IMG/VR virus record: IMGVR_UViG_3300009551_000033
Location: 1 to 38,669 of that record
From: a virus
Reading direction: 5' to 3' (one strand)
Length of the DNA stretch: 38,669 bases
A program made the position numbers and the translations under genes. The notes beneath the pieces were generated by a model. That model saw nothing but the letters and a program-made list of their open reading frames with translations. It had not been told where the DNA came from and searched no databases. Shown one piece after another: positions 3,900 through 33,679 of the stretch (its first letter is position 1; each line of letters begins with the position of its first letter).

Positions 3900-4471
3900 G
3901 CGTTGCGGTTCTCTTCGCACGCCAGGATAGCGTCTACAAGACGCTGCCGGAATGCGATGTGTACGACATTGACCGCGATGCGCGTACATGGCCAGGCGGA
4001 TATCCTGTGGTGGCCCACCCTCCCTGCCGAGCATGGGGCCGGATGCGCCAATTTGCCAATCCGCGCGACGACGAAAAATCTCTAGCCCTTTTCGCTTTGG
4101 CCAAAGTTCGCACTTATGGCGGCGTTTTGGAGCATCCGGCAGAGTCTTCACTATGGGTTGAGAAGATGTTGCCAAGACCTGGCCGCGCACCAGATCAATA
4201 TGGCGGATATTCAATCCAGATTGACCAGTTCCATTTCGGTCATCGTGCAGAGAAATCGACATGGCTGTATATCGTCGGCGTTCATCCGGATGATTTGCCG
4301 GTCATTCCGAAACGCGAAGGAAAACCTACGCATTGCGTGCGCCCGACGAAGAATTATCCGCGTCTACCCTCAATTACGAAGCCTGAGCGTGAGCATACAC
4401 CAGAACCGCTGGCGCGCTGGCTGGTAGCAGTAGCAATCCTGGCTGGCAAAAAAGAAAGGAAAGCAGCATGA
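3896..4471 (+). CDS. Cytosine-C5 DNA methyltransferase-like protein, short form
   Basis: A protein of 191 residues starting at GTG 3896 with a near-perfect AAGGAGGG site. AHPPCRAWG (Cys44) resembles the PPC catalytic loop of C5 methyltransferases, GGVLEHP (Glu79) the ENV motif, and CDVYDIDRDA the motif-II loop. FGHRAEKSTWLYIVG resembles the conserved segment before the target-recognition region. The SAM-binding FxGxG motif and most of the recognition domain are absent, so it may be a degenerate or non-classical enzyme. It lies downstream of the DpdA-like gene, suggesting a shared role in DNA modification or anti-restriction. Confidence 0.55.
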   Translation: MSVAVLFARQDSVYKTLPECDVYDIDRDARTWPGGYPVVAHPPCRAWGRMRQFANPRDDEKSLALFALAKVRTYGGVLEHPAESSLWVEKMLPRPGRAPDQYGGYSIQIDQFHFGHRAEKSTWLYIVGVHPDDLPVIPKREGKPTHCVRPTKNYPRLPSITKPEREHTPEPLARWLVAVAILAGKKERKAA

Positions 4472-6721: not shown

Positions 6722-7530
6722 TTTGCTGCGGCCCAAACTGCGATTTCCTCAATTTGACCGTTTGTAAGAACGGGCTGTGCATATTTTAATACCCGATAAA
6801 TGTTTCCAGTGTGATACTGAGTAAATGCACTGGAAACTAATCGAGCGCCAATGACCACATTGTTAATACCAGTGGCTAGGTCCGCTGTTCCTGTAGATTG
6901 ATATGGCGTGCCAACTCCATCAAAGAACAAATAAGAGTTGCCAATACCTGGCAAATACGTCCCGATGGCAATATGAATATTTGTATCGTTACCTTGTCCT
7001 GAATTGGCATCCGCAATCAAGCTATTGTTGTCTGCTTTTCGTGCAGTAACATAAGAACCAACATTATTAATCTTTAGAATTTCTTGACGGTTCGTACCAC
7101 TTGCAGAAGCACTGTTCATTTCTCCAAATAGACCAGTAGTCATTGCCAAAGCTGGGCCAGCACTATCAAAAATTACTACCTGCGTGCCTCCTGCCTGACC
7201 ACCTAGAGCATTCATATATTGACTAGACGTTCCCAAAAACGAAGCAACATATTTACCATTTACAAGGGTACGAGTAGGACCGGACCCAGATGTAAGGGCT
7301 AAAGACGTACCATCAGCGCCTGCAAGCGTTGTAATGTTGTTACCAGTCATAGTAACTAGCGACGTATTATCAGGATCCCATGAGTAAAGAAGTGCAGGAC
7401 TACCGCTAATATTCGGCGCTGGCGTTCCAAATCCAAATGTCTGAATAACTGGAATGGTGTTACCGCCGCTTGTACTTTTTGTGCGGTTATGATTACGATA
7501 CGTTCCGTGACGCCATACTCGATAAGTCAT
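6697..7530 (-). CDS. Putative lectin-fold (LamG-like) virion or receptor-binding protein
   Basis: A protein of 277 residues, the last gene of the late operon. The pattern is like concanavalin/LamG-type jelly rolls in phage fibres: SPALLYSWDPDNTSLV, GKYVASFLG, IHIAIGTYL, then TGNIYRVLKYAQPVLTNG and a C-terminal helix IEEIAVWAAANYG. It contains many Asn, Thr, Gly and Ser residues. Its location after the lysis genes, like separate adhesin genes in some podoviruses, suggests a cell-surface-binding accessory. Specific ligand unknown. Confidence 0.6.
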   Translation of the reverse strand: MTYRVWRHGTYRNHNRTKSTSGGNTIPVIQTFGFGTPAPNISGSPALLYSWDPDNTSLVTMTGNNITTLAGADGTSLALTSGSGPTRTLVNGKYVASFLGTSSQYMNALGGQAGGTQVVIFDSAGPALAMTTGLFGEMNSASASGTNRQEILKINNVGSYVTARKADNNSLIADANSGQGNDTNIHIAIGTYLPGIGNSYLFFDGVGTPYQSTGTADLATGINNVVIGARLVSSAFTQYHTGNIYRVLKYAQPVLTNGQIEEIAVWAAANYGTPNLA

Positions 7531-31828: not shown

Positions 31829-32188
31829 TTAGTGTTTAAGAATGTTGCTTTGCTTCATCATGGCCCGGAATTCCTCATATCCCCCTGCGATCTTTTCTGA
31901 TGTTTCGTAGGACTGGATCAGGTCTTTAGTACGCTGCACAGGGTCAAAAACAGGTTCTGCAGGGGCTACCTTGCGATCAGGTTGCACTGGAAATACCCCT
32001 ACCCAGCTACGCATAATCGACTGTTCCAAGATCTTCTTTACGTCCATCCCCTGCGTTCGGAATTCGTCTAGCCTCTTCACCAACAACTTCTTTGCGTAAT
32101 CAGTGGCTTGATGCTTCTTTCCCATCTGTTTGCGCATTGCCAAATATGCATTCCACTCATCTACTGGCAGCCATTCTGGTATTTCCAT
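31829..32188 (-). CDS. Replication-protein O C-terminus-like protein
   Basis: A 119-residue protein. ATG 32188 has AAGGAGAG at good spacing; longer in-frame reading through the structured leader is not credible. MEIPEWLPVDEWNAYLAMRK, AKKLLVKRLDEFRTQGMD and ILEQSIMRSWVGVFPV match the C-terminal part of many phage O/primosomal-type replication proteins. The N-terminal origin-binding domain is missing, so this may be a fragment or a stand-alone adaptor to host replication proteins. Confidence 0.62.
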   Translation of the reverse strand: MEIPEWLPVDEWNAYLAMRKQMGKKHQATDYAKKLLVKRLDEFRTQGMDVKKILEQSIMRSWVGVFPVQPDRKVAPAEPVFDPVQRTKDLIQSYETSEKIAGGYEEFRAMMKQSNILKH

Positions 32189-32458
32189 TAATACTCTCCT
32201 TTGTTTATATTTCACCCAAACGCCCCCTAACCCCATAGCATATGGAGAAGAGAGAGATTGAGCGTCACCCCTGTTACCAGGATCTTGGTCAGCTAAGAGA
32301 TCAAAACTCTTACGCCCTCGTCTACCAAGTTCACGCCAGACGGAGGATTGTAGGAATTGCACCTTGGGATTTCTCCCTACCTCTACCCATCTTCTTCCAC
32401 GCTGCCGGGTCGCACTTAGTTTCGTCTGGAGTACGGACTGTTCGGCAGCTATAGACGT
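32189..32458 (-). other. Structured leader before the replication-like gene
   Basis: No credible gene in this 270-base stretch. GCTGCCG (32401-32407) pairs with CGGCAGC (32443-32449). CCAGACG (32336-32342) can pair with CGTCTGG (32423-32429). CTTGGT (32284-32289) can pair with ACCAAG (32324-32329), enclosing a five-pair, seven-base-loop hairpin, or instead form a local ACCAGGATCTTGGT hairpin. These alternatives look like a switching leader, either a tail of the small RNA upstream or a cis-regulatory region. Confidence 0.5.
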
Positions 32459-32578
32459 AAAAAAAGCCCGAATATACTTTAGGAGGCTGGCGCTGGCGGC
32501 GCGGGTAAGGTCTCTTTGCATGGGGATCGATACCCAAGATTCCTAACCGTTGCAGCCTCCTAAAACACATTCGGGCTT
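32459..32578 (-). terminator. Terminator of the small RNA
   Basis: The ten-pair helix 32569-32578/32464-32473 is followed on the minus strand by seven Ts (32465-32459). A 12-pair inner helix (32553-32564/32478-32489) stacks behind it. It also ends transcripts arriving from the genes to the right. Confidence 0.85.
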
Positions 32579-32625
32579 GCTACTACTCTACCGATCTATT
32601 TGCATTTGTCTGCTGCCACACAGAC
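32459..32625 (-). ncRNA. Stand-alone small RNA (about 165 nt)
   Basis: A promoter-like sequence (32660-32632) and an intrinsic terminator bracket a stretch without a gene. The 3' structure is a long helix: AAGCCCGAAT and ATTCGGGCTT (ten pairs), then a four-base internal loop and 12 more pairs, around a 63-base loop with smaller hairpins. The 5' part forms GTCTG/CAGAC inside TACTC/GAGTA. Features are those of an independent regulatory RNA; target unknown. Confidence 0.72.
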
Positions 32626-32631
32626 GAGTAA

Positions 32632-32660
32632 ATTATTGTCTAAACGGCCCAGCTTTGCAA
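32632..32660 (-). promoter_or_regulatory. Promoter of the small RNA
   Basis: Minus-strand TTGCAA (32660-32655), 17-base spacer, AATAAT (32637-32632, five of six). Start expected near 32625. It lies 57 bases after the stop of the preceding small gene. Confidence 0.65.
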
Positions 32661-32716
32661 GGGTTTTCTTACAAAATCTCATCAACGCCCGACACTGTTG
32701 CAATTTCCTGTATGTC

Positions 32717-32893
32717 CTACTTTTTCTCAATCAATAATTGACTGATTGGAACTATTTTCAACAACGATTGCCATCGATAGTAAGCTTCTCGGGGCGTCGG
32801 GGCCGCAACGCCTCTGAGGATGTGCTTTTCTTTCGGGCTGTTAGTGCATAACCAGGCTCGAGGCCCGCACTTTCTAAGATGAGGCTTGCTCAT
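32717..32893 (-). CDS. Small basic phage protein
   Basis: A 58-residue protein from ATG 32893, overlapping the NinG end by 20 bases. MSKPHLRKCGPRAWLCTNS and the TPREAYYRWQ end are a pattern I associate with small phage proteins that look like a minimal zinc- or nucleic-acid-binding module (two Cys, many basic residues). Function unknown. Confidence 0.6.
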   Translation of the reverse strand: MSKPHLRKCGPRAWLCTNSPKEKHILRGVAAPTPREAYYRWQSLLKIVPISQLLIEKK

Positions 32894-33482
32894 TTTCAAT
32901 TTCCTTTCTCATGAGTACAAATTGTTTCTTCATTTCAACTAATTCAGGGATCGTCCACTTTGGGGAGGACTGATCTGCTTCTAATGACTCCACCGTAGCG
33001 GCTCCTCTTCGTAAAACGAGGCCAATTCGATAATCCACCGCTCGACCCGCACCGTATCGATTACATTTTTTACATTGCCCATGGGCGTTGTCGATATGAA
33101 AGCGTAACTGCGGCGCACTGCCAACTGATCGATAATGGCCACAGTCAAACCCGCCTCCAACGGTTTCTTGTGCGAGTGGAACTCCGCACGATATGCACGG
33201 CTTATCGCGGTCCCTAGCGCGGATATAGGCGTTGAAAGCAATCTGGCACTCCTTGATATAGTCCGACCTCGTTTTAAGCTTCTGGCGGCGTTCTGATGCG
33301 TTCTTGCGGTCTTCCTTTGCCACCTTTGCCAGACGCTTTTCCCTTTCATGCAGGCCCCAAGCTATGGCGCACTCCTCTTTTCCGCACACCTTATGAGAAA
33401 TACTGCGGGGTTCAAATTCAGCGCGGCATGTTTTAATCGCGCATTTCCTTCTCTTCTTTTTTTTAAACGCAGTTCTTATCAT
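32874..33482 (-). CDS. ninG: NinG (Rap)-like recombination protein
   Basis: A 202-residue protein; ATG 33482 overlaps the upstream stop (ATGA) and gives the length of lambda NinG (204). CAIKTCRAEF and HKVCGKEECA form the first Cys-rich part; SDYIKECQIAFNAYIRARDR, PCISCG, FDCGHYRSVGSAPQLRF and GQCKKCNRYGAG are the known NinG blocks. Lambda Rap is a Holliday-junction/D-loop endonuclease. It works in the same arm as NinB and opposite Erf/SSB. Confidence 0.9.
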   Translation of the reverse strand: MIRTAFKKKKRRKCAIKTCRAEFEPRSISHKVCGKEECAIAWGLHEREKRLAKVAKEDRKNASERRQKLKTRSDYIKECQIAFNAYIRARDRDKPCISCGVPLAQETVGGGFDCGHYRSVGSAPQLRFHIDNAHGQCKKCNRYGAGRAVDYRIGLVLRRGAATVESLEADQSSPKWTIPELVEMKKQFVLMRKEIENEQASS

Positions 33483-33679
33483 TTTTTTGGCGGCTCCGGC
33501 AGTGGCATCCAATGTGTTGGATTAAGCACATTTTGCCAGCAATCTTCGCTCCAAACCCATGAGCGCCAATCTCCATATATCCAACATGCAATTGTCAATT
33601 CAGAATCTTCATCTGGAACATATAAAATCACATAACTGCCATCTTTAGGCGCTGTGGAAATTGGCTTCCATTGGCTCAT
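33479..33679 (-). CDS. DUF551 family protein
   Basis: A 66-residue protein. MSQWKPISTAPKDGSYVILY at the start and THWMPLPEPP at the end are the DUF551 pattern. Common in phages and prophages, function unknown. Overlaps NinG and the next gene upstream by four bases. Confidence 0.85.
   Translation of the reverse strand: MSQWKPISTAPKDGSYVILYVPDEDSELTIACWIYGDWRSWVWSEDCWQNVLNPTHWMPLPEPPKK

Follow-up and report, generated by a model that had tools for sequence, protein, structure and literature searches.

The element described here lies on the minus strand of the viral record IMGVR_UViG_3300009551_000033, whose 38,669 bases were analysed as a whole and are referred to as the window. NinB, NinG and a 58-aa open reading frame (ORF) are found upstream of the element on the same strand, and the terminase is found downstream, also on the same strand. 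The features of the locus, in minus-strand order, are as follows.

32874 to 33512, minus strand: NinG/Rap endonuclease gene, identified by protein search, upstream of the element
32717 to 32893, minus strand: 58-aa ORF directly upstream of the element
32655 to 32660, minus strand: -35 hexamer TTGCAA, read from the sequence and retained in L164, L084, L085 and L037
32632 to 32637, minus strand: -10 hexamer AATAAT, spacer 17, from the promoter scan
32459 to 32631, minus strand: RNA-coding stretch of 173 nt, from the first base past the -10 to the end of the T-run; homologue at L164 3829-3997
32608 to 32625, minus strand: P1, the 5′ hairpin GUCUGU-GUGGCA-GCAGAC, from the fold
32614 to 32619, minus strand: P1 loop GUGGCA, in which UGGC (32618-32615) is the proposed kissing strand to hairpin B
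32553 to 32578, minus strand: 5′ arm of the terminator helix (P2/P3), 26 pairs, MFE fold
32490 to 32552, minus strand: apex of 63 bases, MFE fold
32504 to 32548, minus strand: apical hairpin A, irregular, with a 5-nt bulge on its 3′ side, MFE fold
32490 to 32502, minus strand: apical hairpin B, GCGC-CGCCA-GCGC, MFE fold; loop GCCA (32497-32494) is the proposed kissing partner
32464 to 32489, minus strand: 3′ arm of the terminator helix, MFE fold
32459 to 32465, minus strand: T7 tract, read from the sequence; the last helix pairs overlap it
31829 to 32188, minus strand: 119-aa protein matching the C-terminal part of an O-like replication initiation protein, the first recognised downstream gene

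An earlier note on this DNA had proposed an independent small RNA gene, in which TTGCAA and AATAAT hexamers 17 bases apart and a terminator with seven Ts enclose about 165 bases. This arrangement was borne out on the minus strand, the earlier note having named no strand; a plus-strand reading was dropped for want of a T-run. The window transcript is expected from the sequence to be about 165 nt long, and P1 is located at the expected RNA start. The long terminator helix of the earlier note is present in the MFE fold, but its supposed internal loop proved to be three G-U wobbles in the middle of a continuous helix of 26 consecutive pairs (32578-32553 with 32489-32464), and the proposed 10 + 12 pairs are corrected to 13 and 12 on either side of the wobbles. 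The 63-base multi-hairpin apex was found as described, with two hairpins in the MFE fold, while P1 and its proposed contact with the apex had been overlooked. The fold z-score of the 167 nt at 32625-32459 was -5.83 and that of the terminator part was -7.21, with 0 of 200 shuffles equally stable in each case. The promoter scored 9/12; matches this good are expected by chance 0.8 times per 851 scanned bases, 6 of 300 shuffled windows scored at least as high, and the promoter is credible mainly because the homologues keep it.

A tRNA search of the window found none, and comparison of the window with Rfam 15 gave 0 matches at the gathering threshold; for 32150-32950 at E ≤ 10, the only match was to a plant miRNA hairpin model (20.3 bits, gathering threshold 200). 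A scan of the minus strand between the window terminator and the next gene found no promoter-like site. The window RNA has no copy or complement of at least 13 nt elsewhere in the window.

Fifteen distinct elements were identified: that of the window and those named L164, L084, L085, L086, L030, L088, L091, L037, L066, L290, L299, L319, L372 and L384. Their common layout starts with a promoter-like site and the 5′ hairpin P1, followed by a terminator helix of 19-28 pairs; the helix encloses an apex, part of which is proposed to pair with the P1 loop. In 15 of 15 elements the P1 loop starts 12-15 nt past the -10 (13 nt in the window), and all end in a T-run of T4-T7. The close homologue L164 shows 79.9% DNA identity over 224 nt and retains the promoter, P1 and the terminator fold; the other 13 phage records are remoter, and their letters mostly differ although the architecture is the same. 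In L084, L085 and L086, a small ORF and a promoter-like site are followed by an element with a different body in the same layout. The promoter of L030 is weak (7/12, equalled in 71 of 300 random windows), and that of L086 scores under the strict scan threshold.

The terminator descriptor used in the search specified a two-tier helix of at least 18 pairs, at least five Ts and an apex of 20-100 nt. The results showed 11 matching places, corresponding to seven distinct elements, in 4.53 Mb (both strands of L004-L267 and the window) and no match in 2.26 Mb of shuffled sequence. L030 was first seen by a helix scan and then recovered by the descriptor together with L088 and L091; a wider version of the descriptor added L037 and L066. 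A 15-letter string from the 3′ flank occurs in at least 120 stretches of viral contigs, and in five of the 120 stretches listed an element lies directly upstream of it (L290, L299, L319, L372 and L384). The descriptor matches L200, L044, L045, L010, L116 and L240 were judged false on individual inspection; further matches were L048/L049/L051, L067, L089 and other low scorers.

The earlier note had suggested looking for covariance among homologous phages, and the helices were found to covary. Alignment A4 comprises seven members (L290, L372, L384, L319, L299, L088 and L084) and uses the structure of the L372 row. In A4, 92.7% of 220 cells are paired, the covariation score is 0.301 compared with 0.194 (sd 0.022) in shuffles, none of 500 of which reached 0.301, and two-sided changes occur in 9 pairs compared with 4.7 in shuffles (3/500). 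Slid controls matter because relatedness by itself can lift sequences above shuffles even where there is no structure; when the partners were shifted by 1-3 columns, 32-59% of cells were paired. In the kissing helix of A4, 83.3% of cells are paired, and one pair occurs as AU (three times), CG, GC and UA. Model R1, built from A4, recovered the non-training members L085 (E 8e-7), L030 (2e-4) and L091 (0.0015). On the window, R1 found the correct place with 11.8 bits and an E of 0.0016 when only 321 of its bases were searched with filters off; in an R1 search of 603,641 bases at E ≤ 1, the window was not listed.

These results bear on another explanation, an ordinary strong terminator downstream of a chance promoter. 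Promoter matches alone are indeed near chance, but L164 has the same promoter, P1 and apex, the helices covary and the shape is rare in the descriptor search, so that this explanation is highly unlikely. The architecture of the homologues and the helix covariation support the earlier proposal of a discrete small RNA, predicted from sequence, with structure exceeding what a terminator needs.

The P1 loop appears from sequence comparison to pair with the terminator tip in the family. An automated test using MFE loops, in which the match was re-optimised for each shuffle, gave a Fisher p of 1e-4 for 10 members, and again 1e-4 without L164; single-member p values ranged from 0.008 to 0.58, with 0.16 for the window. 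A cruder duplex test of eight members gave a weak result (single p 0.001-0.77, Fisher 0.002; window 0.48). In a hand-set six-letter register, each of the 15 members has 4-6 Watson-Crick pairs. When partners were permuted, 0 of 200,000 permutations reached the total of 72/78 over 13 distinct combinations (60/66 without L037 and L066), a figure that is too favourable because the six-letter partners were hand-picked for match, the automated test being the fairer one. The pairing in the window comprises only 4 of the 6 base pairs of the hand-set register and is not significant alone. The six-letter partner has a second copy in the window and in L164; the hairpin B loop of the window element is at nt 134-138 of the RNA-coding stretch.

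The first recognised downstream genes are replication or recombination genes in 11 of the 15 records. RecT plus an exonuclease are found downstream of the L384 and L290 elements, a single-strand annealing protein downstream of L372, a regulator followed by a helicase-loader-related protein downstream of L299, and HNH followed by replication initiation downstream of L037. Downstream of L086 lies a DnaD-like loader, of which L085 has a 69% identical homologue; replication initiation follows the elements of L030, L084 and the window, and L164 carries the homologue. The distance from the T-run to the start codon of the replication gene is 16 nt in L086 and 20 nt in L085, leaving no room for another promoter. 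L066 differs in context, its replication genes preceding the element and GroES/terminase following it; the four downstream proteins tested in L088 and L091 had no PHROG match, and the L319 record stops 541 nt past the element. The element is not strictly tied to the replication gene, since among the 96 replication-gene loci L172-L267 (duplicates skipped) the element was found only in the known contigs L172 and L173.

Upstream, relatives of the 58-aa ORF lie directly before the element in L086, L164, L084 and L085. This protein family (PHLR..WLCT..ERH.LRG..TP..A) was found solely beside the element, in five phages, and the 58-aa protein had no match in PHROG. In the stretches compared, the window, L084, L085, L086 and L164 share three protein families, namely NinG, a 54-aa protein and the small ORF protein. 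L164 and L084 are near-identical for about 70 bp upstream, as far as the -35/-10 spacer, and their RNA bodies beyond are unrelated; judged from the two sequences, the break in identity is a possible cassette exchange point.

Several other features were seen near individual elements. In L084, positions 7218-7342 match Rfam RF02932 (Betaproteobacteria-1 RNA) with 51.8 bits, starting 12 nt past the element's T-run. This is a separate motif, and a link to the family was rejected, as it adjoins the element in L084 only and is absent from the other member records searched; no paper turned up when the literature was searched for the name RF02932. In L164, a second strongly folded non-coding stretch (3998-4250, z -5.28), enclosed by an 18-base inverted repeat, lies between the terminator and the replication gene. 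The terminase frame of L066 (8022-10496, 824 aa) has an internal insert that gives the impression, from its translation, of an intein. A 395-aa reading frame directly upstream of the L030 element (527-1714) presumably resembles the RNA ligase RtcB.

The locus was initially read as a late leader comparable to lambda PR'-tR' (6S RNA), with a Q protein opening it. The position of the window element, after NinG and upstream of a same-strand terminase, agrees with this. However, the terminase, detected in 6 of 14 records, is on the element's strand in four and on the opposite strand in two (G010 and G011), and the downstream genes are mostly those of replication or recombination; no Q-like protein was seen among the window proteins scanned (two sets of 10). 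The late-leader reading, which misfits the family, was lowered on account of the opposite-strand terminase and the downstream genes, and we now give it very little credence. According to the excerpted text of PMC7873438, lambda 6S RNA and StxS arise where a phage promoter and an intrinsic terminator produce a short constitutive leader capable of acting in trans. The unit of promoter and intrinsic terminator is the same in the present family, whereas theirs precedes late genes and the family's mostly replication or recombination genes. We know of no conserved pairing between a 5′ hairpin and the apex in 6S or StxS.

We favour, with about even confidence, the explanation that the element is an attenuator-type 5′ leader, or gate, of a phage transcription unit, which also yields a discrete RNA. 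What was observed is the architecture, which is conserved and covaries, together with where the genes lie; transcription, termination, read-through and a trigger of read-through are inferred. RNA polymerase would start directly upstream of P1, and the nascent RNA would fold P1 first and the apex second. The P1 loop would then pair with the apical loop or strand to form a kissing pseudoknot, and closure of the long helix would cause a stop at the T-run, giving a compact RNA some 110-165 nt long. The downstream recombination or replication genes would be reached only once termination is overcome by a phage factor, a host factor or a change of RNA fold; the terminated RNA would be the off-state product and may additionally act in trans. 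In L085 and L086, the promoter, the strong terminator and a gene within 16-20 nt imply that expression would need read-through, and this favours a gate. Also in its favour, the minus-strand scan found no promoter-like site between the window terminator and the next gene. Against it, the context is not fixed (L066, L088, L091 and L319), no antiterminator came to light, the promoter of L030 is weak and that of L086 falls under the strict scan threshold, and the kissing pairing of the window is not significant alone. In addition, transcription of the upstream nin genes could reach the downstream genes in the window, which counts against a gate.

The main rival is a free-standing gene for a trans-acting small RNA. 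Such a gene would be driven from its own promoter, its RNA would be shielded at the two ends by the 5′ hairpin and the 3′ terminator, and the structured part between them would bind a protein or base-pair with RNAs of the host or the phage. The promoter-like site and strong terminator, the varying neighbours and a kept architecture with varying body sequence agree with such a gene, as do the single copies per record found by R1 in those 9 of 12 records that it matched, antisense self-hits aside. StxS offers a precedent of a terminated phage leader acting in trans and, being both, makes a gate and a trans-acting RNA compatible (PMC7873438, excerpted text). On the other side are the abutment of terminator and replication gene in L085 and L086, the 11 of 15 elements that precede DNA-metabolism genes, and the lack of recurrence or complement within the window; a free-standing gene is thus possible but rather doubtful. 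Given the context and the abutment, a leader role is no less likely than that of a free-standing regulator, and the word "independent" in the earlier note is therefore doubtful.

RNA-only processive antitermination was also considered, in which P1 and the knot would modify RNA polymerase to pass the present and later terminators. The put RNA consists of two adjacent stem-loops, a layout that differs from that of the element. Established antiterminators made of RNA include put of HK022, EAR and canT of Tn916, and canT works beside terminators insulating replication genes (PMC11658703, excerpted text). Like these, the family has a structured RNA with little conserved sequence at the extreme 5′ end of a phage or mobile-element operon; unlike them, its structured RNA is itself a conserved intrinsic terminator with T4-T7 in every member, and read-through is only hypothetical here. 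We therefore consider a put-like role improbable.

A further parallel is the repZ leader/Inc RNA of ColIb-P9 (IncI-alpha), where a pseudoknot controls a replication initiator. Control of repZ is translational, via an antisense RNA; in the present family no antisense partner was seen, the window again being without a copy or complement of at least 13 nt outside the element, although an antisense transcript overlapping the element may exist. The P1 loops of L084 and L086 carry the ColIb-P9 motif UUGGCG, which is named in a title cited by PMC10724649, while the window loop is GUGGCA.

The element family had no match in Rfam 15 as searched here, and nine joined elements had none in a nucleotide search of the phage collection. 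A search for bacterial prophages with R1 covered 399 genomes from a single order and gave matches in two, both of which were ordinary short terminators on inspection. No similar phage leader was recognised in a literature search judged by the titles and abstract starts of open-licence papers. The parts, terminator leaders and kissing loops, are of known kinds; as far as this limited search goes, their combination is not described. More tentatively than for the gate itself, the elements may represent a so far undescribed class of phage RNA switch, in which a kissing contact between the apex of a terminator and the 5′ hairpin on the same RNA gates a recombination or replication operon and the body diverges fast or is replaced. 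Replacement or divergence of the body between close relatives is indicated by L164 and L084, which share near-identical DNA up to the -35 region and have unrelated bodies of the same shape; a variable body is as expected for a specificity determinant of the immunity or incompatibility type.

With their conserved shape and variable letters, the elements form a natural set of variants for the effect of co-transcriptional kissing on intrinsic termination. Lambda-like nin genes are present in most of the phages concerned (NinG was found in 9 of the 12 records searched), and if the gate is real, an RNA tertiary contact would control entry into the transcription of their replication and recombination genes.
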